Shown piece after piece: positions 1 through 47,341 of a stretch of DNA of 64,000 bases. The stretch comes from Plumapathes pennacea (taxonomy: Eukaryota; Cnidaria; Anthozoa; Antipatharia; Myriopathidae). The stretch lies in NCBI GenBank assembly GCA_964036295.1, contig OZ038469.1:8820067-8884066 (forward strand). The letters run 5' to 3'. The notes under the pieces were generated by a model. The model was not told the origin of the DNA, did no database searches, and worked only from the letters and a program-made list of their open reading frames with translations. The position numbers were made by a program, and so were the translations under genes. The first letter of the stretch is position 1, and each line of letters starts with the position of its first letter.

Positions 1-252
1 TATGATCGAGTGGTACATGCACTGCAGGGACGTTTGTACTTTGACGCGGTAAACTGCGTTTGAGATGCTCGAAATTGAATTCAAAAAGGAGAAAAGAAAG
101 AAAAGAATTTCGAAAAACGGGGAACTTTTGATGTCGATCGATCGGCAGTTCACCGAGTGGTACAGTCGAGTGGTTATGTACTACAGAGAGATTCTGATGT
201 TAGGGTTAGAAAAAAGAAATCCGATCCCCGTATTTTACGGGGGTCCCGCTAG
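1..252 (+). mobile_element. Non-autonomous Helitron unit, type A, cut by the window edge
   Basis: 3' part of a short Helitron unit. It ends in a hairpin (CCCCGTATTTTACGGGG), then GTCCCG and CTAG, the usual Helitron 3' end. The next unit starts at the following base with TCTCTATATAATAATACGC. The sequence from base 1 matches that from base 1509, which makes this the same sub-type as the unit at 1089-1761. Confidence 0.8.
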
Positions 253-306
253 TCTCTATATAATAATACGCTTAGCAACCGCTGACCGCGGCTCATGTGT
301 GTGTGT

Positions 307-394
<88 letters not shown>

Positions 395-1088
395 CAAATT
401 GTTAATTTCGATTGGTGACGTAACAAATTAAACCGGTAATTAGATAACGTGTGTTTGAATTTCTGACGCTCGCGTATGATTGTTAGTCATAATTACGATG
501 TTGTCAATTCGAATTGAATCGCCGGCACAAGCAAGCCAGAAATCTTCTCGACCGTTGCCTTTCAACCAAGCCCACGGGACGCGATTACTGAAGGTGAGAG
601 TTTCATTTGAGTTAAGAAGAAGAATTTCAGGTGTCTGGATGGCGGGGTGATGCTGCCGCATGTTTGAAAAACGGGAAGATTTTGATGTTGGACGATCGGT
701 GGTTCGACGAGTCGAGTATGGTCGAGTGGTACATGCAACTACAGGGACGTATGTACTTTGACGCGGGAGACTGTTTGAGATGCTCGAAATTGAATACAAA
801 AAGGAGAAGAGAAAGAAAAGAATTTCGAAAAACGGGAATATTTTGATGTCGATCGATCGGCAATTCACCGAGTGGTACATGTACTACAGAGAGATTTCGA
901 TGTCGATCAATCGGTGGTTCGACGAGTCGAGTACGGTTGAGTGGTAAAAGCACTACAAAAGTTTGTACTTGGACACTGCAAACTGCGTTCGAGATGCTCA
1001 AAATGGAATTCAAAACGGAAGAAAAAAGACAGAAAAAATATTAGGAAAAAAGAAATCCGATCCCCGTATTTTACGGGGGTCCCGCTAG
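253..1088 (+). mobile_element. Non-autonomous Helitron unit, type B
   Basis: A complete 836-bp unit. It begins TCTCTATATAATAATACGC, carries a long (TG)n tract about 45 bp in, and ends with a CCCCGTATTTTACGGGG hairpin followed by GTCCCGCTAG. It abuts its neighbours on both sides with no spacer. Type B differs from type A by a longer 3' half in which the GATGTCGATCGATCGG-type block is repeated. Minus-strand open frames in the unit are conserved between copies, but no recognisable protein is encoded. Confidence 0.85.
295..392 (+). repeat. (TG)n microsatellite
   Basis: About 98 bp of nearly pure TG just after the 5' terminal sequence of a Helitron unit. Every unit has a tract at this position, but with a different length, so it is an internal and fast-changing part of the element. 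Confidence 0.95.
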
Positions 1089-1761
1089 TCTCTATATAAT
1101 AATACGCTTAGCAACCGCTGACCGCGGCTCATGTGTGTGTGTGTGTGTGTGTATGTGTGTGTGTAACAAATTGATATAATTTCGATTGGTGACGTAACAA
1201 TTTAAACCGGTAATTAGATAATGCGTGGTTTGAATTTCTGACGCAACAAATGCTCGCGTACGATCGTTAGTCATAATTACTGTATCGTCAATTCGAATTG
1301 AATCGCCGGGAAAAGCAGGCCAGAAATCTTCTCGACCGCTGCCTTTCAACCAAGCCCACGGGACGCGATTACTGAAGGTGAGAATTCCGTTTGAGTTTAG
1401 AAAGAGAATTTCAGAGTGTCAACTGACTGGATGGCGGGGTGATGCTGCCGCATGTTCGAGAAACGGGAGGATTTTGATGTCGGACGATCGGTGGTTCGAC
1501 GAGTCGAGTATGATCGAGTGGTACATGCACTGCAGGGACGTTTGTACTTTGACGCGGTAAACTGCGTTTGAGATGCTCGAAATTGAATTCAAAAAGGAGA
1601 AAAGAAAGAAAAGAATTTCGAAAAACGGGGAGCTTTTGATGTCGATTGATCGGCAATTCACCGAGTGGTACAGTAGAGTGGTTATGTACTAAAGAGAGAT
1701 TTTGATGTTAGGGTTAGAAAAAAGAAATCCCGATCCCCGTATTTTACGGGGATCCCGCTAG
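1089..1761 (+). mobile_element. Non-autonomous Helitron unit, type A
   Basis: A 673-bp unit running from TCTCTATATAATAATACGC to a hairpin plus GATCCCGCTAG. It abuts the units on both sides. The stretch from about 1240 to 1760 reappears nearly identical in reverse orientation at about 13138-13680, beyond the autonomous Helitron. Confidence 0.85.
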
Positions 1762-1802
1762 TCTCTATATAATAATACGCTAAGCAACCGCTGACCGCGG
1801 CT

Positions 1803-1847
<45 letters not shown>

Positions 1848-2539
1848 CAAATTGATAATTTCGATTGGTGACGTAACAAATTAAACCGGTAATTAGATAA
1901 TGGGTGGTTGAATTTCTGACGCTCGCGTATGATTGTTAGTCATAATTGCGATGTTGTCAATTCGAATTGAATCGCCGGCACAAGCAAGCCAGAAATCTTC
2001 TCGACCGTTGCCTTTCAACCAAGCCCACGGGACGCGATTACTGAAGGTGAGAGTTCCATTTGAGTTAAGAAGAAGAATTTTAGATGTCTGGATGGCGGGG
2101 TGATGCTGCCGCATGTTTGAAAAACGGGAAGATTTTGATGTTGGACGATCGGTGGTTCGACGAGTCGAGTATGGTCGAGTGGTACATGCAACTACAGGGA
2201 CGTATGTACTTTGACACGGTAGACTGTTTGAGATGCTCGAAATTGAATACAAAAAGGAGAAGAGAAAGAAAAGAATTTCGAAAAACGGGAATATTTTGAT
2301 GTTGATCGATCGGCGATTCACCGAGTGGTACATGTACTACAGAGAGATTTTGATGTCTATCAATCGGTGGTTCGACGAGTCGAGTACGGTTGAATGGTAA
2401 AAGCACTACAAAAGTTTGTACTTGGACACTGTAAACTGCGTTCGAGATGCTCAAAATGGAATTCAAAACGGAAAAAAAGACAGAAAATATATTAGGAAAA
2501 AAGAAATCCGATCACCGTATTTTACGGGGGTCCCGCCAG
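1762..2539 (+). mobile_element. Non-autonomous Helitron unit, type B
   Basis: A 778-bp unit with the same ends, except that the terminal tetranucleotide reads CCAG rather than CTAG. It resembles 253-1088 over its whole length, so units 1 to 4 of the array alternate A-B-A-B with a dimer period near 1,508 bp. Confidence 0.82.
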
Positions 2540-3327
2540 TCTCTATATAATAATACGCTTAGCAACCGCTGACCGCGGCTCATGTGTGTGTGTGTGTGTG
2601 TGTGTGTAACAAATTGGTAATTTCGATTTGTGACGTAACAAATTAAACCAGTAATTAGATAATGTCGTGGTTTGAATTTCTGACGCAACATTAATGCTCG
2701 CGTACTCGTTAGTCATAATTACTATACCGTCAATTCGAATTGAATCGCCGGGACAAGCAAGCCAGAAATCTTCTCGACCGCTGCCTTTCAACCAAGCCCC
2801 ACGGGACGCGATTACTGAAGGTGAGAGTTCCGTTTGAGATTAGAAAGAGAATTTCAGCTGTCAGGATGTCTGGATGTCGGGGTAATGCTGCCGCATGTTC
2901 GAAAAACGGGAAGGTTTGGATGTCAGACGATCGGTGGTTCGACGAGTCGAGTACGGTCGAGTGTTACATGCACTACAGGGAAATTTATATTTTGACGCGG
3001 TAAACTGCGTTTGAGATGCTCGAAATTGAATTCAAAAAGGAGAAAAGAAAGAAAAGAATTTCTAAAAACGGGGAGCTTTTGATGTCGATCGATCGGCAAT
3101 TCACTGAGTGGTACGGGTCGAGTGCTACAGAGAGAGTTTGATGTCGATCAGTCGGTGGTTTGACGACTCGAATACTGTTGAATGGTAAATGCTCAAAGAG
3201 GTTTGTACTTGAACACAGTATAGTGCGTTCGAGATGCTCAAAATGGAATTCAAACAGGAAAAAAAAGACAGAAAAAACATTAGGAAAAACGAAATTCGAT
3301 CCCCGTATTTTACGGGGGTCCCGCTAG
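2540..3327 (+). mobile_element. Non-autonomous Helitron unit, last of the left array
   Basis: A 788-bp unit from TCTCTATATAATAATACGC to hairpin plus GTCCCGCTAG. It resembles type A in its first two thirds and has a diverged 3' third. It is followed by T and then unrelated DNA, so the tandem array ends here. Confidence 0.82.
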
Positions 3328-3986: not shown

Positions 3987-4440
3987 CTAGTGGGACCCCC
4001 GTAAAATACGGGGATCGGATTTCTTTTCACCTAATATTTTTTGTCTTTTTTTTTTCCTTTTTGAATTGAATTGAAAGGTCAAGCATCTCGAACGCAGTTT
4101 ACCGCGTCAAAGTACAAATTTCTGTATTGCATGTATACCACTCGACCGTACTCGACTCGTCGAACCACCGATCGGTCGACATCAAAATCTCCCCGTTTTC
4201 AAACATGCGGCCATCCAGACACCTGACAGCTGAAATTCTTTTTCTAAAGTCAAACGGGATTCTCACTTTCAGTAATCGCGTCCCGTGGGCTTGGTTGAAT
4301 AGCAACGGTCGAGAAGATTTCTGGCTTGCTTTTCCCGGCGATTCAGTTCGAATTGACGATATGGTAATTATGACTAACAACTACGCGAGCATTACTGTTG
4401 CGTCAGAAATTTAAATCACGCATTATCTATTTACAGGTTT
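3987..4440 (-). mobile_element. 5'-truncated Helitron unit, reverse orientation
   Basis: Reverse-oriented member of the same family. Its 3' end (hairpin and CTAG) is at 3987. Homology runs to about 4440 and stops before the (TG)n and 5' terminus. The final bases read GTCCCACTAG, one change from the family. Confidence 0.72.
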
Positions 4441-4494
4441 AATAATATAGATGCAAAAATTCTCTATTCTGATTGGCTGAGAACAGGTTTGTTA

Positions 4495-4535
4495 TCTCTA
4501 TATAATAATACGCTTAGCAACCGCTGACCGCGGCT

Positions 4536-4570
<35 letters not shown>

Positions 4571-5261
4571 CAAATTGATAATTTCGATTGGTGACGTAAC
4601 AAATTAAACCGGTAATTAGATAATGCGTGGTTGAATTTCTGACGCTCGCGTATGATTGTTAGTCATAATTACGATGTTGTCAATTCGAATTGAATCGCCG
4701 GCACAAGCAAGCCAGAAATCTTCTCGACCGCTGCCTTTCAACCAAGCCCACGGGACGCGATTACTGAAGGTGAGAGTTCCATTTGAGTTAAGAAGAAGAA
4801 TTTCAGGTGTCTGGATGGCGGGGTGATGCTGCCGCATGTTTGAAAAACGGGAAGATTTTGATGTTGGACGATCGGTGGTTCGACGAGTCGAGTATGGTCG
4901 AGTGGTACATGCAACAACAGGGACGTATGTACTTTGACACGGTAGACTGTTTGAGATGCTCGAAATTGAATACAAAAAGGAGAAGAGAAAGAAAAGAATT
5001 TCGAAAAACGGGAATATTTTGATGTCGATCGATCGGCGATTCACCGAGTGGTACATGTACTACAGAGAGATTTTGATGTCAATCAATCGGTGGTTCGACG
5101 AGTCGAGTACGGTTGAGTGGTAAAAGCACTACAAAAGTTTGTACTTGGACACTGTAAACTGCGTTCGAGATGCTCAAAATGGAATTCAAAACGGAAAAAA
5201 AGACAGAAAAAATATTAGGAAAAAAGAAATCCGATCCCCGTATTTTACGGGGTCCCGCTAG
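4495..5261 (+). mobile_element. Complete solitary Helitron unit, type B
   Basis: A 767-bp unit starting TCTCTATATAATAATACGC and ending GGGGTCCCGCTAG. It is flanked by A on the left and T on the right, the classic Helitron A^T insertion site with no target duplication. It is nearly identical to the type B array units, which gives an independent definition of the unit ends. Confidence 0.88.
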
Positions 5262-5451
5262 TATTTAAATTAGTGTGCAAGTGTGCAAAAAAGGTTAATC
5301 AGATGTGCAAAAGTAGTTAACCAGAGTTAATTGCACAGATTAACTGATTTTGCACACTTCGTTGCCATGACAATCACGCAAGCTCAACTTTTGCATCGAG
5401 AAAAATGGTGGCCAAGAGCGAGAGATTCCCAAAACATAAACAAAACTAACG
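5262..5451. other. Short spacer with repeated TGTGCAAAA motifs
   Basis: Non-coding. GTGCAAAA and its complement occur several times with GTTAATCAG/CTGATT-type arms around 5280-5360, which could form a weak stem. No gene. Confidence 0.4.
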
Positions 5452-5604
5452 AGTAGGCGAGCATTTGTTGCGTCAGAAATTCAAACCACGACATTATCTA
5501 ATTACCGGTTTAATTTGTTGCGTCATAAATCGAAATTAACAATTTGTTACACACACACACATGAGCCGCGGTCAGAGGTTGCTTAGCGTATTATTATATA
5601 GAGA
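5452..5604 (-). mobile_element. 5' fragment of a Helitron unit abutting the autonomous copy
   Basis: The first ~150 bp of a family unit in reverse orientation (terminus at 5604). It begins directly after the CTAG end of the autonomous element at 5605, so the tandem junction also occurs on this strand. Confidence 0.75.
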
Positions 5605-5634
5605 CTAGCGGGACCCGTGGAACTTCCACGGTAA

Positions 5635-6142
5635 ATAAGTGCGTGTGTGTGTGGTTTGGATTTCTGACACAACAAATTTTTGTGTACTTCTGTATATAGT
5701 AGTAGTTATAATAACACATCATAGCATATCAACAAAGCAAAGGGCTCCTCATTCCTTTTATAAATTCGAACTGAATCGCCATTAACTGCCGGAGTTCGCA
5801 AAATGAGGAGACTTTAATGAGGAAAATTAGAAATTAGGAAAAAAGAGAAATGTCTAGCAATATTCAAAAACTTTATTTTACATTCCATAATTTCTGAAAT
5901 AGCTAGGCATACAATCTATCTTTACAATTATTGCATGTAGTTATAAAAAAACCTCGTCTACAAAGAAAAAAGACTGGAAACATTCTCCAAGCCAAGTTAT
6001 GCACATTCACCGGACCTCTGGACTATAAAAAGGCAGACTGAAGTCTGGCACGCCCAAGGGGGTTGGTTACCCCAAGCTTGTGTTGAGCAAAAGCAACCTT
6101 AAGTGTCCCTACATTTTGAAATATAGCTGCATAAGATACAAA
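5635..6142. other. 3' non-coding region of the autonomous Helitron
   Basis: No gene. It lies between the Rep-helicase stop and the 3' hairpin. A small stem (CAGACT-GA-AGTCTG) is at about 6034-6047, and a TATAAAAAG string is just before it on the plus strand. Neither is supported as functional. Confidence 0.45.
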
Positions 6143-6360
6143 TTATGTCAGAACTTCTCGGTAGACGACATTGCGTGTCACCAACTTGCCTTGCTTTTCA
6201 CCTTGGGTATCAGTGTTAAGAATGTTGACTCTAACAGACTGGCTGAGGTAAGTAAATTCCAACCCTGTCAAATGTCTGGCCTTGTGCTTTGTTTATTGTC
6301 ATTGAGTAAGCCAGGCGGAGGGGAAACTGCATTCTCTGTAAGGTAAAGGGCAAGTTGGTG

Positions 6361-7635
6361 TCACTTGACTCCAGAATTTGGCCCAGAAGTCAGTTTTGCT
6401 TCCACACAGTTTTGATGCAGTTTTACAACTTGTAATCTGGTACCGTTGCACAGCCCTTGTTGCAATGCAAGGTTACGAAGCAGCATGACAATACAGTTGA
6501 CTTTGAGATTAAGGCGATGAGGTGGCATGCCTGATGGTGTGAGGCTGTTGATGAACTCCATAGGGTAATTGTTTGCTTCCTCAGGATTATCACACTTTAC
6601 TGAATCTGCACTGAAGTAGGTGACTTTTTCTCCAGGCAAAGTTCGCATCACTTCCTCATTCATGGCCAGGCAATTTTCATTTTTAGGGGACAGGATGACG
6701 CAGGTTAGTCTTTCTTCTACAGTTGTATTGGAGAAAATATCTTCAATGAGGGAACCTCTAACCACACATGCATTGGGCACTTCTATGACGTCTGTTACAG
6801 GTGGTTGGAGATCTGCCCGAAGGAGGCCACCCCCAAGAAGAAGAAGCCATCTGGAGAAGATTTCTTGGCCGGCGCGAGTTCGCATGTTCTGTGTGAGCTG
6901 TAGTTGATGGAAATGTTCCCAAAGGTGTGAACGTTTGAGGCATGTGTCAATAACAACAGCTGGTGGAGCTCGTGGAACCACAGGTAGGACCTGTCGGAAA
7001 TCCCCACCTAACAGGATGACTTTACCCCCAAAGGGCTGTCTGACTGCAGTTATGTCTTGCAAACATCTGTCTATAGCATGTAGGGCATGGGTTGGTATCA
7101 TGGATGCTTCATCTATGATGAACAGAATCTGGTCACGGAGAAAAGAAGCTTGTTGTGAAGTTGGATTAATGTTGCATGAACTATTTTCCACTACTGGCAC
7201 CGGAAACTTGAATAAGCTGTGTACTGTTTTTCCCCCAGACAACAGCACTGCTGCAATTCCAGTCCAAGCTGCACATGCAACTTGGTGGCCATTGTTACAC
7301 AAGTGCCTCATCAGCATGTTAAACACAAATGTCTTCCCTGCACCCCCTGGGGCATCAACGTAAAAACATCTTGCTCGTGGTGGATCTCCTCTGCCTACAC
7401 TGTCTACAGATCCCAGTATGCAATCCACCAATTGTCGTTGCTCGTTATTTAGTAGCTCAAAGTCAACAGGTTGTTGTTGTCGTGCTTCTGCATTAGCTAT
7501 GTTTTCTCCTTCTGGCTGTGGTAGACCAATGATAGCACAGCTTAACCCATTTTCTTGAAGAATGACCTCTATTTCATGCAGAGCAATGTTTTCTGCATCT
7601 GCCGGTTCATGATGCAACAGCAGGTCCTCCATCAT
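6361..7635 (-). CDS. Pif1-like helicase segment of the Helitron Rep-helicase
   Basis: This is the longest open stretch of the broken gene, 424 residues. It contains the P-loop (residues 97-102), DEAS (175-178), GGDFRQVLPVVPRA, TQNMR and GLCNGTRL motifs of Pif1/RecD-type DNA helicases. It opens only because the nested Helitron ends just upstream; its first ATG is internal to the original gene. It stops at NSGVK because of a frameshift, and the remaining helicase motifs continue in another frame down to 6143. On its own it would be a helicase fragment without the Rep nuclease. Confidence 0.85.
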   Translation of the reverse strand: MMEDLLLHHEPADAENIALHEIEVILQENGLSCAIIGLPQPEGENIANAEARQQQPVDFELLNNEQRQLVDCILGSVDSVGRGDPPRARCFYVDAPGGAGKTFVFNMLMRHLCNNGHQVACAAWTGIAAVLLSGGKTVHSLFKFPVPVVENSSCNINPTSQQASFLRDQILFIIDEASMIPTHALHAIDRCLQDITAVRQPFGGKVILLGGDFRQVLPVVPRAPPAVVIDTCLKRSHLWEHFHQLQLTQNMRTRAGQEIFSRWLLLLGGGLLRADLQPPVTDVIEVPNACVVRGSLIEDIFSNTTVEERLTCVILSPKNENCLAMNEEVMRTLPGEKVTYFSADSVKCDNPEEANNYPMEFINSLTPSGMPPHRLNLKVNCIVMLLRNLALQQGLCNGTRLQVVKLHQNCVEAKLTSGPNSGVK

Positions 7636-7648
7636 GGCATATTTGTGA

Positions 7649-9371
7649 CTAGAAATACGATAATCGCAGATATCCCCTCGCTCAGTAGTGGGTTTTCGGA
7701 AAGCGGGATTCTTGTTTATTTTCGGTTCGGAGATTATTTAAATTTTTTTTTGCAAACCACGGCTGTGTAGCGACGTCACCAGTCGGCCGCTAAAAAAAAT
7801 CTTTTTCGCACGGCAGTCTGGTTTAGTTCAGACAACGTGCACAGTCTGCAATTTTCGTAGACACTAAGCTGAACTTCAAAATTCGCTGAGACAACATTTA
7901 CACGCAACTACAGAATACTCCCGAGGCTTGAAAGCCAAGCAAAGTCAATCTTGGACACCGAATTTTTTTTTTTTTTTTTTTTTTTTACTTTATAAGTTTA
8001 ATACGCTTCTTCGAGTGTGACAAAATTTAGAGCCGTCAAAGCGAGTCGCTTGTTTACACGCTTTCGAAGTCTCGGGACCGTGTGAATTTTGGCAGGTATT
8101 CAATTTTGAACACAACAACTTTTCAAACTGCGTTTGACGATTTTAAAATCTTTGACAGAAAAAAGAAATCAAGTCACTAAATAATACAAGGTCCGATTGT
8201 ATTGAGCGAGCAAACCCGGTCACTAAATAATACAAAGTTCGATTGTGTTGAGCGAGTATCTTACGGGGTCCCGCTAGTAGACAATAATATACAATAGACT
8301 AATTGTTTAATTTGGAAAGCAGTGGCCGGATATTTTCTACTTTAATAGCCTTCAAAAAGCAAAAGCATTTTAACCCGGTTACATTTTATCCTTGAATACA
8401 GTGTGCCAACAAACGCGGCGACAAAACTTCACAGCATGTGTCAGACTGTCAGTGAAATTATGCAAATATGTCAGGAATCGGATGACACAATCTTGCACGA
8501 AGGCACTCTGAAATAGCTTTGAAAACTAGCGAAAAGATCACAGTATAATCCTACTTGGCCTTCATCACAGTTCCCGGGGCATCAAACGACAAAATATACG
8601 GCAATTGTTGAAATACCATAATGATAACACGACCGTCATTTAACAAAGGCGTTGTACGTTAATTGATGTAAATTTTCAAAACTCACCGGTTCCTGAAAGC
8701 CATAGCTTTAGCTCTTTTCCAGCAAAGGAAACAAAACCCAAAACACCATTGTTTACGTCTTCAATGATTTCAAAGTACACTGTATAGAGCAGTCCTTATA
8801 CAGTACGAAAATTCCACTTTCCATTGTATTGTGTGTCGTCATCTTGTCAAACTTGGATTCTGAAAACTACATTCCTGTTATTGTAAAAGGTGAAATTTGC
8901 CACGATGATTGTTCGATTTCCACCAACTGTATTTTGCTATTTCTTTCTGAAGAAGTGTCTGCGTTTTAACACAGTACTGGCGTCTGGGATTGTGTTCAGG
9001 TCGACCAGTTGTGCCTTTAAGAATCCGTTTCACGGCTAGTAAGCTTGCCTCCCATACACCGGCAAAATATCCGGGCAAATTACAGCCGTCCGTCGAACTG
9101 CTTGGCCTTGTATCTGCATCTTATTGTACAAAATCACTTCCGTTCGTACTCTTACAGCTACCGCATGTCACTAAGAAAATGGCGGTTTACAGTTAAGCTG
9201 CCGATGTAACCTCGCAGTGGTCGCTCGACGCGGATGGCCCTGGGGACGAGTCGTACCCCACACACACACACACGAACATTAAATTTCGAGATGGCGACAC
9301 GCTTGGAGTCTTCAAATGATACGATTTTGCTGCATTAGCGTCGTGATTATTTCCCTCACTTCGTTCGGGGA
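7649..9371 (-). mobile_element. Nested 1.72-kb Helitron, copy 1
   Basis: A non-autonomous Helitron of 1,723 bp. On the minus strand it begins TCCCCGAACG and ends GATTATCGTATTTCTAG. It is flanked by A on the 5' side and T on the 3' side, and no target bases are duplicated. It lies inside the Rep-helicase gene, and joining the flanks across it keeps the reading frame (...L-W-T-N / H-K-Y-A...). Two nearly identical copies are at 38242-39959 and 41888-43606, so the family moved recently. No transposase is encoded. Confidence 0.92.
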
Positions 9372-10225
9372 TTAGTCCACAGTCGCATGGGGTAGGAGGG
9401 TTCACAGAAAACGCAGATGGTGGCAAACATGCTTCGTAGCTGTCTAGGCATCTGGAATCCAGACGCTTCTGCTAGTGTGTTATTGTACTCTGTGTCATCT
9501 GAAAGGAGTCGGCGTTGAATGCAAGCTGCCCTAAAACTGGCTGCAACTGCACCATCGACTGTCTTCAGGTCATCATAGCTTGTGGCACCTGGGACATGCA
9601 ACAGGAGAAGGCGCAGGTAGAACTTTTCTGGATCTCTGGGGCTAACAGAATACATTCGACTGATAATACGGTCTCCACCTCTGCGTCTTATTCTCCATTT
9701 CCTCTCTTGATCAATGAACACATAGTGTTTGGGAATTTCGTTGTAGAGGAACTCGCGTGCATGGGGGTCCTCCCTATTCAACCTGAACCACGCAGTCAAG
9801 TGTGTGTCACGTCCCTCTGCTCTCTCAGCTGCTTGTTCTTCTTCTACTTCCCTGAAGTAGACCCTCTGCTGATCAGGCAAGTGAATAGCAAGTCTGCAGA
9901 TTGTATGCGACTGTTCGTGCAATTTGTACTCAGACAGCCGCCATATTGCTTCTGGTGCAGAGACGTACCTGCAACACAAGTAGGTGTTGACTTCATCATG
10001 CTGTAAGATGGGTCTTTGGTCTTGTGGAATGTAGCCTTTGTACACATACTTGAATAGATACTTCACGCTCTTTACCGATGCACAGGCCTCGAGGTTGATG
10101 TGAGCCCTGTACTTTCTCAGAAGGAAACTGTTGTATGGCACAACGAACCTGTTGTCAGCAATATGAGTGCCAACTCGAACAGTGGATCCATTATCTCTGC
10201 GTCGGTAGGCAGGGTAGCCACCCAC
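9372..10225 (-). CDS. Helitron Rep segment with the catalytic tyrosines
   Basis: Open part of the broken Rep-helicase gene. It starts after the frameshift near 10240 and ends where the nested Helitron cuts in at 9371. It shows GYPAYRRR, the conserved KYLFKYVYKG block containing both candidate tyrosine nucleophiles, and RYVSAPEAIWRL, all typical of Helitron Rep between the nuclease and helicase parts. It is not an independent gene. Confidence 0.85.
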
Positions 10226-10230
10226 GTTTT

Positions 10231-10701
10231 CTAGTGTATTATCACGAACTCTTTAGGGAATTTCTTCTGACACTCCCCATCTACCATGCACACAGAATTT
10301 GGGTTCCCTATGCCGCACGGGCCATGGATCATGCAGGATCTCACCAGTTCGTGCAATTCAGGGTCTTCACGAGGGTCTGGAATTTCTGCAATCCTATCAA
10401 TGTCATTACGATTTCTGAGTTTGTCTTGGTTTCTTAGGATGATCAACATATGGCAGTGTGGTAAGCCACGTTTCTGGAATTCAATGACATGCACGTGGGC
10501 CACTGGTACTCCAAGGACATGTCTGTCTTTGATGTCAGTCATTAGCTCTTTCAAGTGCGCCTTGAAAACTCTTGCCACAAGGTCAGGGCGGTATTCAGAT
10601 CGTTCACCAGGCCTTAGGTTTTCAATGATCTCTCTTGCTTTTGGGTTACAAGTGTATGTGAGGAACAGATCAGGCTTACCATACTTGGCAACAATAGCCA
10701 T
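10231..10701 (-). CDS. Helitron Rep segment with the HUH metal-binding motif
   Basis: 156-residue open stretch. It begins with MAIVAKYGKPDLFLTYTCNP, which is typical Helitron Rep, and contains HVHVIEFQKRGLPHCH, the HUH motif at residues 82-84. It is preceded by an in-frame TAG (about 10717) that replaces a codon expected to be Gln, and it is followed by a frameshift. Both joins are defects of one original gene. Confidence 0.88.
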   Translation of the reverse strand: MAIVAKYGKPDLFLTYTCNPKAREIIENLRPGERSEYRPDLVARVFKAHLKELMTDIKDRHVLGVPVAHVHVIEFQKRGLPHCHMLIILRNQDKLRNRNDIDRIAEIPDPREDPELHELVRSCMIHGPCGIGNPNSVCMVDGECQKKFPKEFVIIH

Positions 10702-10719
10702 TGCGTCTTGGTAATTTTG

Positions 10720-12117
10720 CTACATTGCTCGTGGACTTCCAACAAATGAAGAGGGGAGGATGACAGGGATACCAGCTTGCATACCTTGCTCTTCTGCTCT
10801 GTTGTGCAAGTGGTCCATTAGGCCGGAATACATTTGTACTCTCAGTTGCGTCTGGTTACTCCGGATGTAGTACAGTCGGCAGCCTTCAGATTTTACATAA
10901 GCATCAACTGCATACTGTTGGAATAGCTTGCCTGCACTGTGGATGGGGCTAAACTCTTCCCTGACTGCCAAGCGGTAGTTGTAAAACTGCTGCATCGTGA
11001 GCCTGGTGCGCCTTGCTGTTTGGTGTTCTGCAACGTGCTGCATGTCACAATGCCAGCCGGCATCTGCACGGGGAAACAAACGTGGGTAGCACATGGGGTC
11101 AATGTGACACGACATGTAGGAGATACGGTGGAGCGGTCTGTCTCTGGGGTACACAACAATGTCTCTATACGCAGGAGGGGCGCCATCTTCTCCCACAAAC
11201 ACTGCTGCTACCTCATCATGCGTAGGCTCATTGTATCGCCTGCGATCAGGACCACGCTTGAATTGTAGCCGGACTACTTGTGGTTGCCTGCCCTCTGCAA
11301 CTGCATGATGATCTTCTTCTTCTTGCACAGCATGCATGTTCCTGTAGGCAGCAGCGTACGGGCTGTATGCTGTTATTGCTGTTTGAATGATTTCCATGAC
11401 ATCCCGTCTGCATGCAGTGTTCGCAGGTGCATTGACATGGGCATCAACAGCTTGGTCCCCCTCAATGATATACAACTGGCCATACTGCCTGTTCTCCCCT
11501 TCAGGAGGGTGAAGAGTTCCAGTGTTGTGGTATGTCTGACCATGTATACGGAAACAGTAGGTGCCACGACCAGGGAGAGTTGATGTTTGAGCTCCAAAGG
11601 AAGCGAAAGAGAAAGCACTGTTGTAGTTGCGTATGTTGGTCCTAAAATTCTTTGCCTCAGCAGAATCTCCAATGAAAAGTGTTTGAAGACCAAGGGGATA
11701 CTGTGTAAGGGCAGGCAAGGCAACCTTTCCCTTGTGGCAACAGTTTAGGGCTTCACCATGAAATCGGAGGGCAAGACAGTATTCACATGATATATTCATT
11801 TGGCCCAGATAGTATGTAGCCCCATCAATATTGTCCCGATGTTCGACTGCAGTACTGCCATGTCTTCTCTCTCCAGCATGCACAACCAGGCGGGGCTGTT
11901 CTTGGCTACTTGCTTCCCTGCGCTGCCGTCCCCTCTCTCTGTTTCTAGTTCTTCTCGCCTCTCGCTGTTCTTGGCTCACTGCCTCTCTGCGCTGCTGACC
12001 CCTCTCTCTGTTTCTAGTTCTTCTCGCCTCTCGCTGTTCTTGGCTCATTGCCTCTCTGCGCTGCTGTCCCCTCTCTCTGTTTCTAGTTCTTCTGGTCTCT
12101 CGCTGTTCTTGGCTCAT
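10720..12117 (-). CDS. Helitron-like N-terminal domain segment
   Basis: 465-residue open segment of the Rep-helicase. It begins with three 23-residue repeats (MSQEQREARRTRNRERGQQ-type) and continues into the conserved N-terminal region (GRGTYCFRIHGQTYH, YPLLFP-like YPRLFPRADAGWH, QLRVQMYSGLMDHL). It ends GSPRAM, directly before the TAG codon. The original start lies upstream at 12498, in the same frame, beyond another TAG near 12197. Confidence 0.85.
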   Translation of the reverse strand: MSQEQRETRRTRNRERGQQRREAMSQEQREARRTRNRERGQQRREAVSQEQREARRTRNRERGRQRREASSQEQPRLVVHAGERRHGSTAVEHRDNIDGATYYLGQMNISCEYCLALRFHGEALNCCHKGKVALPALTQYPLGLQTLFIGDSAEAKNFRTNIRNYNSAFSFASFGAQTSTLPGRGTYCFRIHGQTYHNTGTLHPPEGENRQYGQLYIIEGDQAVDAHVNAPANTACRRDVMEIIQTAITAYSPYAAAYRNMHAVQEEEDHHAVAEGRQPQVVRLQFKRGPDRRRYNEPTHDEVAAVFVGEDGAPPAYRDIVVYPRDRPLHRISYMSCHIDPMCYPRLFPRADAGWHCDMQHVAEHQTARRTRLTMQQFYNYRLAVREEFSPIHSAGKLFQQYAVDAYVKSEGCRLYYIRSNQTQLRVQMYSGLMDHLHNRAEEQGMQAGIPVILPSSFVGSPRAM

Positions 12118-12350
12118 TGCCTCTCTGCGCTGCTGTCCCCTCTCTCTGTTTCTAGTTCTTCTGGTCTCTTGCTGTTCTCGGCTACTTGCCTCTCTGCGCT
12201 ACTGTCCCCTCTCTCTGTTTCTAGTTCTTCTCGCCTCTCGCTGTTCTTGGCTACTTGCTTCCCTGCGCTGCCGTCCCCTCTCTCTGTTTCTAGTTCTACT
12301 GGCCACTCGATGTTCTTGGCTACTTGCTGCCCGGCGTTGCTGTTCTCTCT
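11890..12350 (-). repeat. 69-bp coding tandem repeat in the Rep N-terminus
   Basis: About six copies of a 69-bp unit encoding a 23-residue Arg/Glu/Gln-rich repeat. Central copies differ by only a few bases; outer copies are diverged. One repeat carries a CAG to TAG change (near 12197) that interrupts the frame. Confidence 0.88.
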
Positions 12351-12569
12351 CCCTGTGTACAGTTCTTCTGGCCTCCAGTTGTTCTTCCCTGAGACATGCA
12401 CGGTGCTGCCGTACACGTTCTCTGGTTGCTGCTCGGACAGTCTCACGTTCTTCACTTGTCCTTACAAGATGCACACGCTGATTTCCCTCCATACTCATGT
12501 TGCATATGTCACTTAAAGAAATTGGTAGTCAAACGTTTGGTTCAGGTTGAAAGTAGTAGGCAAGCATTT

Positions 12570-13132
12570 GTTGCGTCAGAAATTCAAACCACGCATTATC
12601 TAATTACCGGTTTAATTTGTTGCATCACAAATCGAAATTAACTCGTCGAACCACCGATCGTCCGACATCAAAATCTTCCCGTTTTTCAAACATGCGGCAG
12701 CATCAGCCCGCCATCCAGATATCCTGACAGCTGAAGTTCTTTTTCTAAACTCAAACGGAATTCTCACCTTCAGTAATCGCGTCCTCGGCTTGGTTGAAAG
12801 GCTAGGGTTGAGAAGATTTCTGGCTTGCTTTTCCCGGCGATACAGTTCGAATTGACGTCATGATATGAATTATACGCGAGCATTTGTTGCGTCAGAAATT
12901 CAAACCACACATATCGAATTACCGGTTTAATTTGTTGCGTCAGAAATTCAAACCACACATTATCTAATTACCGGTTTAATTTGTTGCATCAGAAATTCAA
13001 ATCACGACATTATCTAATTACCGGTTTAATTTGTTACGTCACCAATCGAAATTATCAATTTGTTACACACACACACACACACACACACATGAGCCGCGGT
13101 CAGCGGTTGCTTAGCGTATTATTATATAGAGA
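12570..13132 (-). repeat. Helitron 5' leader with ~53-bp tandem repeats
   Basis: Repeats of the block GTTGCGTCAGAAATTCAAAC - TTATCTAATTACCGGTTTAA occur about four times between 12570 and 13045, three of them in tandem. They are the same subterminal block that each short unit carries once. Non-coding. Confidence 0.75.
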
Positions 13133-13137
13133 AGAGA

Positions 13138-13963
13138 CTAGCGGGATCCCCGTAAAATACGGGGATCGGGATTTCTTTTTTCTAACCCTAACATCAAAAT
13201 CTCTCTTTAGTACATAACCACTCTACTGTACCACTCGGTGAATTGCCGATCAATCGACATCAAAAGCTCCCCGTTTTTCGAAATTCTTTTCTTTCTTTTC
13301 TCCTTTTTGAATTCAATTTCGAGCATCTCAAACGCAGTTTACCGCGTCAAAGTACAAACGTCCCTGCAGTGCATGTACCACTCGATCATACTCGACTCGT
13401 CGAACCACCGATCGTCCGACATCAAAATCCTCCCGTTTCTCGAACATGCGGCAGCATCACCCCGCCATCCAGTCAGTTGACACTCTGAAATTCTCTTTCT
13501 AAACTCAAACGGAATTCTCACCTTCAGTAATCGCGTCCCGTGGGCTTGGTTGAAAGGCAGCGGTCGAGAAGATTTCTGGCCTGCTTTTCCCGGCGATTCA
13601 ATTCGAATTGACGATACAGTAATTATGACTAACGATCGTACGCGAGCATTTGTTGCGTCAGAAATTCAAACCACGCATTATCTAATTGCATGCGGCAGCA
13701 TCACCCCGCCATCCAGTCAGTTGACACTCTGAAATTCTATTTCTACACTAAGACGGAATTCTCACCTTCAGTATTCGCGTCCTCGGAAAGGCTACGGTCG
13801 AGAAGATTTCTGGCTTGCTTGTTTGCTTGCTTGATTCAATTCGAATTGACGATAAGGTAATTATGACTAACGACTACGCGAGCATTGGTTGCGTCAGAAA
13901 TTCAAATACATTATCTAATTACCGGTTTAATTTGTTACGTCACCAATCGAAATTATCAATTTG

Positions 13964-14018
<55 letters not shown>

Positions 14019-14059
14019 AGCCGCGGTCAGCGGTTGCTAAGCGTATTATTAAATGGAGA
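13138..14059 (-). mobile_element. Helitron unit upstream of the autonomous copy
   Basis: Reverse-oriented family unit, 922 bp. Its 3' hairpin and CTAG are at 13138, five bases (AGAGA on plus) from the start of the autonomous element. Its 5' end is at about 14059 (TCTCCATTTAATAATACGC, preceded by A). The 13138-13680 part is nearly identical, inverted, to 1240-1760. An internal duplication of the GCATGCGGCAGCATCACC block is at about 13688-13735. Confidence 0.8.
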
Positions 14060-43656: not shown

Positions 43657-44961
43657 CTAATCAGAGAACGCTTGAGAGAAACCCTGTAATTCGTTCCATT
43701 TAGTATACTCATCAAGAGCAGCAGAGTTGAGAGAGGCCAATTTTGCAGCTGGACCAGCTGGGTTTAAAACTTCCTTCAATTTAATGTAATGTAAGGCCGT
43801 CTGTGAAGATTTCCATCCAACGTGGTCCATTATTTCGCTTAGGCTCGTTTGAGAGAGAGCAAGAGAGACTGCAGCTCCGCTTCTAAAACCATGGAGGGTT
43901 ACTCTTCTATTCTGGAAACGTGCCCCTAAATGTTTGACATACTCGTCTAGCCTTGCTTGGGCGGCTGCTGAATTAAACTTTAGTGCAGTAACATGCTTCT
44001 CCTTGGATAAAGAGCGGAACAGGAAGCCTTTGGTGATATCAATTGCCAATAAATTGCAAATTTTGACGTAGCTTTCAATACCCACAACTGGACAGATTAG
44101 TTTATTCACACCCCTTTTGAAGGCAAATATATTCTGATCACCTTGGCGCAAGGTTTTTGACCAAAGATGATTGAACAGAAACCCTGAATTGTCAGGAAGA
44201 CGGAAAATTTCCTGCGTTTTGACGTGTGCTAAATCTGCAGCACGATCTCCTGAAAAGAAAAGGGCCTTAAAAAAGGCCTGGTCTCTTGCAAGCATATAAA
44301 TTCGGTAGGGTTCTAAAAAAGTTTGTGAAAGATTGGCCAGAATATGAGAGGAAACCTTCTCCAAATCGGAGAGCAAAAGGGGGGTTGCCTGAAGAGGTGT
44401 TACCCTTGCTTGTAATTGTTCGGCGTTAACGTTAGATAAGTAGTCCTTAACCTGTTTACTCGCAGCGGGGTTGCCTATAACGAGAGCGGTGTTCCAATCT
44501 CCTACTCTATGGTGGGTGGCGAGAATGGCCCTAAGTTTCCCGATTAAGCTATCGACAGTTCCTCTAGCTAAACGTTTAGGGCAACTGCATGAAAACTTCC
44601 CTTTATGACCAAGGAACTTGCAAAGATCTTTGTGAACGACAGTGCGACCATCACCATCTTTCCAAATCAAGAATTTTACAATATCAGTGGGAAGAGCTGA
44701 GGAGATGTTCTTAGGGGGTTGTAGGCGAGAGAGGAATTGAGAAAACTCCATCTCCAACGCTGACTTCTGCTTGGCGTAGTTACTGGACTGCTGCCTTTGA
44801 ACTAAATGGTCAAGACGAATCTGAATAGCGCTTTCGTTCACGGGGCGCCGAAGTCTTTTCTTTGGAAGAACTTCAACTGTGAAAGGACGCCTTTTATAGC
44901 CACAGTTTTGACAAAAGTGGAAAGCTTCGTCGTTGGCGTATGGGCACACGGGACAGGCCAC
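43657..44961 (-). CDS. Tyrosine recombinase (integrase) of the DIRS-type element
   Basis: 434 residues, intact. It integrates the element's circular DNA by strand exchange rather than by a DDE integrase (family knowledge). An N-terminal zinc ribbon (MACPVCPYANDEAFHFCQNC; Cys 3, 6, 17, 20) is followed by the core. Catalytic residues visible: Arg240 (SGDRAADL), HGFR (His357, Arg360), DHVGW (His380, Trp383) and the nucleophile Tyr392 in TALHYIKL. All expected residues are present, and it is the only undamaged gene of the element. It is the last gene on the minus strand, about 250 bp after the RNase H remnant. Confidence 0.9.
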   Translation of the reverse strand: MACPVCPYANDEAFHFCQNCGYKRRPFTVEVLPKKRLRRPVNESAIQIRLDHLVQRQQSSNYAKQKSALEMEFSQFLSRLQPPKNISSALPTDIVKFLIWKDGDGRTVVHKDLCKFLGHKGKFSCSCPKRLARGTVDSLIGKLRAILATHHRVGDWNTALVIGNPAASKQVKDYLSNVNAEQLQARVTPLQATPLLLSDLEKVSSHILANLSQTFLEPYRIYMLARDQAFFKALFFSGDRAADLAHVKTQEIFRLPDNSGFLFNHLWSKTLRQGDQNIFAFKRGVNKLICPVVGIESYVKICNLLAIDITKGFLFRSLSKEKHVTALKFNSAAAQARLDEYVKHLGARFQNRRVTLHGFRSGAAVSLALSQTSLSEIMDHVGWKSSQTALHYIKLKEVLNPAGPAAKLASLNSAALDEYTKWNELQGFSQAFSD

Positions 44962-45208
44962 TTGAGGTTGGAACAGTTTGGAAACTCTAGGAAGCGTCTA
45001 ACATGAATTAGAGATCACGACGCAGACAAAGTTATTATTATTATTATTTTTATTTTAACTTACATTGTCCAACTCGGAAGACCCATAGCTCTACTGGGGC
45101 AGGGACTGGGACAAAGCTACCAACTTTCTGTGGGGATAGAACTGCATCTTGTCCTCCCTTCTTGCATAGGACAAAATGCTCTGACGCTGAAGAGAGCAAT
45201 ATCGGCCA

Positions 45209-45673
45209 TCAATAGGGTTTTACAGGAAAATTTGGCACAACGATGGTGAAGGAAATTTCAGCCGACTGAAGAAACTTCAGGGTTGGTCCGATGAGGTTGA
45301 ATGGGGGAAAAACGTAAGGATTCTGCTTTGTTCTCCAAACTGTAGGGTTCTGTGCAAACAAATTGACACCGGTGGATTGAGGCATAGGAAAAGGAGTGAA
45401 ATGGGCAAGAGGGGTGCCATCAAAACCCAGCTGGGTATTTGAGTCCAGAGCCATGAGATCAATTGTATGGCCTGACTGCCCTCCAAACTCCTCCTGGATT
45501 CGCTTCCAACTTTTGAGTGACAACATTGTATCAGAGGGAGAAAGACGTCTAGATGGGTGATCAGCCGCGTTGCTTTCTGAGGGAACTTTGTGCACATAAG
45601 TTGTAGGTTCAACTTGGAGGTCAAACTGAAAACTTTCTTTGTCGCAGCAGTTAGCTGGGGACTTCTGCGCCAA
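45209..45673 (-). pseudogene. RNase H C-terminal remnant of the DIRS-type element
   Basis: Shows KVPSESNAADHPSRRLSPSD, GHTIDLMALDSNTQ, FTPFPMPQSTGVNLFAQNP and YVFPPF, the conserved tail of DIRS/Ngaro RT-RNase H proteins. The RNase H core that should precede it, with the acidic catalytic residues, is missing: only ~70 nt separate it from the RT connection sequence, so about 100 codons were deleted. Confidence 0.8.
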
Positions 45674-47146
45674 TGCATTAGTTCTTCCCGTACGCTTGAC
45701 GACATGGAGGCTTGCGGGCTCGCACCCGCTGAGGCGATTGCGGTCGCGATATTCCTGATGAAAAGCTTTGCCCTAGGAACAGCCAAATAGAAGGAGACAC
45801 ATTTCCCTTGAAAACGTTGAAGGGATTTGACTGAAACTGTTTTCTTGGAAGCCAGAATGGTTTCACGAAGCTTTGCGAATTTGGCAATCTTGTCTTCAGG
45901 AAGGAGAAAAGCTTGTAGAATTGTATCAACAATAAGGCCAAGATAGGTAAATTCGGGTAGACGGTACGAGTATAGACTTGGAGAGACCCAGAAAATATCC
46001 GAGGTCAATGAGAAGGTAACAGACGATGTAGATCGCAGCTTGGGCGGCTTTAAAACTGAAATTAGAGTCTCTTTTAGAGGGCGGAACTGACCAGGGCCCT
46101 GTGCGGGAGAATAGTTCACCATTCAGCCTGTCGTCAATGTATAGCGAACATGGGATACCAAGATGTCGAATAAAGCTAGACACCGCAAGGCCGGTAGAGT
46201 GGTATATGAAGGCGGATTCCTTCCAACCAAAAGGCAACGTGGTATTAACCAACCACCAACCTCCCCATTCCATGCCAAAAAATCTCCGTGATACGTCACT
46301 CAACAAGATGTGGTCATAACCAGACTTATCATCACATTTTGTCAGAAAAGACCCTCTATACGCGTATCTAGTGACATCTAACAGCTTGTCAGGGGAAAAT
46401 GGTTGATCCCTCATCCAGTTATTTAAGAATCTCGCATCCTGGCATAGACGAGGCTTTGTTGGCTCCACTGTGAGAGGAAGCACAATATAGGGAGGCTCTA
46501 CCTTTCCAACTTGACCCCAAACCAGGACTGCACCCATTTCAATCCTTTGGAGGAAGGTTTTTGTGATGAAGGACGCAAAATTCTTACAGCTTGCATGGTT
46601 AGGGAGAAACTTAGGAGGGGGAAAAGAGGAATCGTACAGCACCCCCTTAAACTTTCCTTTGAAAGGAACAATGAACTCTTCGACGTCTACTTTGTTGGCA
46701 ATCCAGCGGGAGATACGTTGGTGGCCTGGGGAGTCTCCTAAGATTGAATTCCAGGCGTGCTGGTGTTGATGCAGTTGACCAGCTACAAAAACGTCAGGAT
46801 TACGAAATGGGAGACTGGAAAGATCTGGGACTACAGAACCATCGAGAACCTGGTGAAATCCTGGCACGGGAAAGACTGTCCCCTGGCGAGGAGTCCCACC
46901 CACGGAAACCCACTCAACTCGTCTTGATGCCTTCTCGGAGGCTTCCAAAACGTTAAAAGACTGTTGGAGTTCCCAATTAGGAATTGTGACGCTGTCAACA
47001 TACTTGGGTTTTTTTCTTGGGATCTGGAAGGGTATGCATAACGGGGAAAAATGATAAGTGGAAAGTGGAAAAAACGCCGTGGGTAGGGACTCCTCGTCAG
47101 GAGACAGCAACTCCCGCACCCGATGAATCGGAATGCCCACGAGCAT
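45674..47146 (-). pseudogene. Reverse transcriptase of the DIRS-type element, frameshifted
   Basis: Frame 1 (47146-45926) carries KVEPPYIVLPLTVEPTKPRL, FLTKCDDKSGYDHILLSD, LPFGWKESAFIYHSTGLA and the catalytic LYIDDR. A one-base shift near 45955 moves the continuation TYLGLIVDT...KTVSVKSLQRFQGKCVS to the second frame (45277-46122). The RT palm residues (D in KCDDKSG, YIDD) are intact. The protein would stop at SWPYC. Confidence 0.85.
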
Positions 47147-47341
47147 GCCCAGAAAAAAGACATACCCGCGTGAGATGCTGGCCCTTCAAAGGATTGAAAG
47201 GATTTAAGGAGGCAAAAGTATATATCACAGGAAAATTACCTTTAATGTCTGTAGTAACAAAGCGAAAACAAAAAATATGAATCAGCAGTATAGCTCAACA
47301 CCAAACTCATCACTAAACTATAAACAACCAAAACTGGACGG

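Follow-up and report, generated by a model that had tools for sequence, protein, structure and literature searches.

Head-to-tail Helitron arrays in Plumapathes pennacea: probable stacks of separate insertions at resident 5' ends

How do Helitrons come to lie head to tail without a single base between them? An array of this kind opens a 64,000-nucleotide stretch of the P. pennacea genome (C8:8820067-8884066; the window), and its family was followed through the genome searched, 290 Mb in 24 contigs. We conclude that the array is probably a stack of Helitrons from a single family that transposed separately, each landing at the A|T at the front of a resident copy. This reading draws on the number of exact joints in the genome, the lack of kinship between neighbouring units, a bias in the position and orientation of insertion, and one comparison between paralogous loci. 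An earlier note on the window had proposed rolling-circle concatemers, followed by amplification of a dimer.

Results

The plus-strand array comprises five units (1-252, 253-1088, 1089-1761, 1762-2539 and 2540-3327) with zero bases between them. Joints 252|253, 1088|1089 and 1761|1762 read CTAG|TC, while joint 2539|2540 reads CCAG|TC; the earlier description of seamless CTAG|TC between all five units is thus right about the absence of intervening bases and about three joints, and wrong about the fourth. The last CTAG (3327) is followed by T. The 5' terminus, TCTCTATATAATAATACGC, lies on the plus strand at 253, 1089, 1762, 2540 and 4495, and with up to three mismatches it occurs eight times on the two strands of the window, versus 0.02 expected by chance. 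Complete plus-strand array units run from TCTCTATATAATAATACGC to a 3' hairpin and then ten bases ending in CTAG (CCAG in one unit). The hairpin CCCCGTATTTTACGGGG precedes all five 3' ends, with one mismatch in the fourth unit; four 3' ends were folded (z -1.9 to -4.2), the hairpin lying about 10 nt before the end.

The first unit, A1, enters the window as its 3' part (1-252, plus strand; hairpin at 226-242 and CTAG end). Its body is traceable to about -343 in L079, the locus left of the window, in whose 2,982 bases no intact plus-strand 5' terminus was found for it. B1 (253-1088, plus strand, 836 bp) and A2 (1089-1761, plus strand, 673 bp) are non-autonomous units with CTAG|TC at both sides. 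B2 (1762-2539, plus strand, 778 bp) carries the CCAG end in place of CTAG, and A3 (2540-3327, plus strand, 788 bp), which ends in CTAG before T, belongs to another subtype, about 90% identical to A2 over 626 aligned positions. Beyond the array, a B-type unit of 767 bp (4495-5261, plus strand) sits between A and T. The earlier note had called it solitary; its A and T flanks are as described, but it lies within a minus-strand unit spanning 1,618 bp (3987-5604). In L079, at about 2422 (window about -560), two units stand head to head, both lacking about their first 22 bases, so that an inverted repeat lies left of the window.

By these sequence features the array units are canonical non-autonomous Helitrons, with 5' TC, 3' hairpin and CTAG, and an A|T target. 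The family shows TC and CTRR ends (CCAG in one window unit), a 3' hairpin, and A|T insertions that leave no target duplication, and a Rep-HUH/PIF1 (RepHel) coding region is present in a neighbouring autonomous-type member (PF14214, PF05970), in a broken copy. Helentrons (Helitron2) insert between T and T; assignment to that class was considered and is contradicted by the A|T insertion context of the family. The termini, hairpins and A|T contexts bear out the Helitron identity and unit ends that had been claimed from the window. Rfam and tRNA scans of the window found nothing. Elsewhere in it (43657-47185, minus strand) are retroelement-like frames, one with a weak reverse transcriptase match (RVT_1, below its cut-off) and one a tyrosine recombinase frame also matching the ALOG domain, which we take to be arranged as in DIRS-like elements.

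Minus-strand members of the array's family run on to 14059 and include an autonomous-type Helitron of 7,528 bp (5605-13132, minus strand) with broken reading frames and the 3' hairpin CCGTGGAAGTTCCACGG before GTCCCGCTAG. We regard this copy as broken because one in-frame stop divides its Rep region (10231-12198, minus strand; Pfam Helitron_like_N, PF14214), which then resumes in a different frame (9356-10252, minus strand). The continuation has no Pfam match and contains KYLFKYVYKG, which, reading by eye, we take to be the two-tyrosine motif; the HUH and tyrosine motifs of the element (13132-5605) are our assignments by eye. A PIF1-like helicase domain follows (6361-7737, minus strand; PF05970, PF21530). 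The element differs from the non-autonomous units in its 3' hairpin but has the same 5' terminus and the same ten final bases, and from these shared ends we infer that autonomous-type elements would drive the family. Its 3' CTAG is directly joined to the 5' TC of the minus-strand unit 5604-3987. At its other end, five extra bases, TCTCT (13133-13137, minus strand), separate its 5' terminus from the CTAG of the upstream unit.

Five autonomous-type 3' ends were found genome-wide by exact pattern. Among the three inspected, those in the window and on C7 run straight into a second 5' terminus, while the C1 end stands before a T that belongs to other sequence and is not joined. Of 150 Rep matches scored in the genome, four lie near 199 bits, the window copy included, and two of the four are stop-free in the matched frame. 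An element near a Rep match on C11 was considered as a further joined autonomous element and rejected, its joint having the non-autonomous hairpin (L083). Two tandem repeats lie within the window element: a 69-bp repeat in about seven copies (11895-12386), which gives a repetitive arginine-rich stretch ahead of the Rep domain in the open frame, and, in the 5' region, a 49-bp repeat in about three copies (12882-13041) that resembles the family's own 5' sequence.

Could a CTAG|TC joint be an accident of random insertion? The exact 19-base 5' terminus occurs 281 times genome-wide, and the reversed pattern 0 times. Of these termini, 178 follow A and 84 directly follow CTAG. A genome-wide search for direct joints was the check that the earlier note had proposed, and it is positive, with 84 places. 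Random insertion would give about 0.002 joints, a rough figure that takes 0.079 AT per base from the window and assumes uniform insertion in either orientation; the joint is therefore not an accident of random insertion. The count of 84 is inflated by segmental duplication, 16 of the joints lying in seven paralogous loci on C3. The 19-base terminus was absent from viral contigs and turned up in bacterial ones twice, each time singly, as against an estimated 2 or so by chance in 257 billion bases.

Sequence was fetched for loci with 93 distinct termini of the 100 exact ones listed on C1-C3, for the stretch left of the window and for one array on C9; loci L001-L038, which overlap later loci, were excluded from the unit analysis. 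The 106 fetched 5' ends (one counted twice, L070 and L071 overlapping by 1 kb) comprise 60 after A, 37 in joints and 9 others, among them one GTAG joint. Outside joints, 45 of 48 3' ends precede T and 60 of 69 5' ends follow A. Tail-to-head joints in the fetched loci are seamless in 42 of 51 cases and have a spacer of 2-18 bases in the other nine, for example TA, TTA, TAA-type repeats or partial terminus copies; several family copies are situated in TAA repeats. Partial terminus repeats (TCT, TCTCT, TCTCTA) stand directly before complete 5' termini in L043, L045, L056, L058, L074, L075 and L077 and at 13133-13137 in the window. That in L056 corresponds to an insertion at inner position 6 of the terminus; the others may reflect slippage.

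Are neighbouring units copies of one template? Under the earlier proposal, the transposase would pass the 3' terminator round a circle and insert a multimer, and an AB dimer would later be amplified. Seamless CTAG|TC joints are what such a process would leave: Helraiser circles with the same joint are known (PMC4778049), and bat and plant arrays are invoked in favour of the rolling-circle model in the introduction of a 2018 paper (PMC5876387). Seamless neighbour pairs were parsed in 34 cases, of which seven with fewer than 350 aligned bases and three paralogous repeats were dropped, leaving 24. The mean identity between neighbours in these pairs is 86.6%, versus 86.54% with downstream partners shuffled, and 909 of 2000 shuffles were at least as high. 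The median identity is 86.7% between neighbours versus 95.0% to the best relative at another locus, and in 0 of 24 pairs is the neighbour the nearest relative. Neighbours that are as alike as shuffled units and never nearest relatives look like independent draws from the family. Three of the 24 pairs do belong to one subfamily (at least 95% identity), compared with 4.2% of 713 random pairs (Fisher p = 0.087), which is a point in favour of concatemers, but these three pairs have only 0, 0 and 1 exclusive derived sites in common. A minor same-source contribution to neighbour pairs is compatible with 3 of 24 at p = 0.087. Joints between an autonomous-type element and another unit also speak against concatemers.

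The A-B-A-B order, from which amplification of a dimer had been deduced, stands as far as the window edge shows, since bases 1-222 match 1509-1730 at 97%. Across the edge the picture changes. A1 agrees with A2 at 215 of 221 aligned bases over its final stretch, at 300 of 351 upstream of it and at 515 of 572 overall. Two other units are closer to A1 overall: its left-hand minus-strand neighbour (556 of 577) and L071_2961 on C3 (540 of 577). B1 and B2 are 97.3% identical to each other, and each is 98.3% identical to the unit at 4495-5261 and 97.3-98.0% to L045_901 on C1 and L066_1801 on C2, so that copies on other chromosomes are as near to either of them as the other one is; among nine B copies, no variable site is exclusive to B1 and B2. 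With no exclusive B1/B2 site and with A1 nearer to units other than A2, duplication of a dimer is neither needed nor supported. A2 itself has a near twin in opposite orientation (13138-14059, minus strand), which carries an extra segment in its interior and two mismatches in its 5' terminus; the 3' 550 bp of A2 are identical to 13138-13687, which may reflect a recent sister insertion or gene conversion. Concatemers predict neighbours from one template, and amplification of a dimer predicts derived sites common to B1 and B2; as neither was seen, rolling-circle concatemers are not supported as the main source of joints in this sample, and we hold them to be a highly improbable origin of the array.

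Why should so many insertions end exactly at a resident 5' terminus? Of 83 downstream flanks of full units (paralogous repeats included), 43 are family sequence. In these 43, the unit adjoins position 0 in the same orientation in 34 cases, lies within a few bases in 4, and meets the body in forward orientation in 2 and reversed sequence in 3. The terminus also contains two inner AT-rich A|T sites. Position 6 was used in 6 cases genome-wide (4 with a stricter pattern) and position 8 in 0, versus 84 at position 0. The head-to-head arrangement GAGA|TCTC was found by exact pattern at one site only, where two complete 5' termini meet (L085, C9:8612050-8612150), the palindrome giving two matches.

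The simplest account of this bias would be that an AT-rich 5' terminus is a good generic target. Several copies do lie in TAA repeats, and the AT-rich target preference of Helraiser is strongest next to the 3' end of the insert (PMC4778049), an asymmetry that would favour position 0 in the same orientation and may contribute to the orientation bias. The inner A|T sites are nevertheless rarely used, and head-to-head insertion is confined to one site; a generic landing pad alone would not favour position 0 so strongly, and we consider a purely passive pad rather unlikely.

The Helraiser transposase cuts between the flank and the 5'-TC on the top LTS strand (PMC4778049). If the family transposase likewise recognised and nicked resident 5' ends (A|TC), the nick could serve as a landing site, and cutting there would direct insertion and account for the bias. 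Put more strongly, the transposase might home on resident family 5' ends, so that the A|TC nick that starts transposition of the resident would serve the strand of another member. We offer this homing as a tentative possibility, which we do not favour outright.

A cluster of seven copies of one array on C3 (11.38-11.84 Mb; L072-L078) gives a view of an insertion. In L074 and L078, a unit that we call unit C directly follows host ...GATAATCA / ...GATAATTA. Three extra bases, TCT, precede it in L075 and L077, and L073 has a variant. In L072, an unlike unit of 624 bp intervenes, abutting host ...GATAATTA on one side and, through its CTAG, the TC of unit C on the other. A unit is thus present at the front A|T in L072 and absent in L074 and L078, one case of the separate presence and absence that serial insertion calls for. 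Judged from the aligned loci, the seamless joint in L072 most likely arose when an unlike element entered between the host A and the T of the resident. The difference between L072 and L074/L078 is what insertion into host-A|resident-T would leave, which favours insertion over loss. In principle, the extra unit could have been lost from the other loci by recombinational exchange; at the two informative unit C bases before a TG tract, L073, L075, L077 and L078 are both times like the extra unit, and L074 is C-like at one.

L076 shows another insertion, an element in opposite orientation that has entered the unit C terminus behind the A of TCTCTATA. Other features of the cluster are less simple. 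Downstream of unit C, before the partner that follows it, L072 contains further units where five of the six other paralogs have CTAG|TC and L074 has CTAG-TCTCTA-TC. A 36-base piece with a partial 3' end also lies between two units of L072 (2130-2260, reverse strand of the locus). These extra units and the 36-base piece are not simply explained by insertion at the front, and recombination or another route is needed for them. In L072-L078, the unit starting at locus position 1801 (minus strand) has only about 50-60 bases in common with its upstream neighbour. It is probably from a different subfamily that shares this 5' terminus; within the 1.8 kb fetched, its 3' end was not found.

Discussion

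We propose that the array grew in the following manner. A resident Helitron would lie between host A and T, and the host A together with the resident's own first T would form a new A|T target. Insertion of another family member at this front A|T in the same orientation would join its CTAG to the TC of the resident and rebuild the target at the front. Strict growth at the front predicts an excess of younger upstream units. In the 24 pairs the upstream unit is closer to its nearest relative in 13, further in 10 and tied in 1 (p = 0.68; the nearest sampled relative is a crude proxy for age); no such excess was seen. Short duplications of the terminus (TCT, TCTCT, TCTCTA), which part the two units at some joints, also weigh against this account.

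Could the units instead have been joined before they inserted? If the 3' CTAG of one single-stranded transposon were joined in trans to another's cut 5' TC, a mixed chain could insert once, and unlike neighbours, uniform orientation, exact joints and the absent age gradient would all follow. Such a chain does not account for a unit that is present in L072 and absent in L074 on its own, and insertions with short spacers or at inner sites need separate events. We therefore think pre-assembled mixed multimers an unlikely general source.

Recombination has also to be weighed: unequal exchange, gene conversion and segmental duplication among scattered copies could have made or rearranged most arrays. 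The seven paralogous C3 loci with their 16 of 84 joints, the inverted 550-bp identity of A2 and 13138-13687, and the otherwise unexplained extra units and partial 3' end of L072 speak for it. Yet recombination copies an existing joint and by itself would make no first CTAG|TC between unlike units, and the observed A and T contexts outside joints count against it. As the maker of most arrays it seems to us improbable, if a little less remote than a single mixed chain, and serial insertion at resident 5' ends remains our preferred reading.

What would follow? If most joints arise at resident 5' ends, head-to-tail arrays weaken as an argument for rolling-circle transposition. The family would have a strong strand-specific preference for its own copies, testable with existing Helitron assays, and the growth of clusters of unlike Helitrons at one spot, autonomous ones included, would be explained. 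Should the transposase indeed home on resident 5' ends, each copy would be a strand-specific attractor, and mixed, exactly joined arrays would be composites able to move together by 3'-end bypass.

Comparison with known systems

In the open-access literature, mostly without subscription journals, we found no genome-wide test like the present one, and the available parts of PMC13286980 and PMC10095026 hold nothing on arrays of unlike Helitrons. The closest precedent is from maize, where consecutive insertion at the A|T formed by a host A and the 5' T was proposed in 2008 (PMC2267711). The maize pair has the same CTAG|TC joint between unlike elements, but it is one pair of unclear insertion order, whereas 84 joints, shuffle and orientation controls and a paralogous comparison are at hand here. 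In the bat Myotis lucifugus, Helitrons in tandem have similarly perfect head-to-tail joints (work by Pritham and Feschotte, described in PMC2267711). They were read as tandem repeats made by rolling circle, while the neighbours in the present arrays resemble unrelated draws from the family.

Helraiser resembles the present family in its TC and CTAG ends, 3' hairpin and AT target, and its circles contain a precise head-to-tail joint; those circles are experimental, whereas the arrays described here are genomic and made of unlike units (PMC4778049, PMC5876387). Tandem runs are also known from plant centromeres (Xiong et al., cited by PMC6591975 and PMC5148889), where, unlike our reading, they are described as truncated copies or as copies amplified by rolling circle. 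For three tandem Helitrons of the fungus Metarhizium acridum, repeated insertion into a 5' end and rolling circle were both weighed (PMC5148889), a single case from a study that assigned most of the fungal Helitrons it found to the Helitron2 type. Serial insertion and rolling circle have thus both been discussed before; what is new here is the statistics that decide between them for one family, together with the bias in position and orientation.
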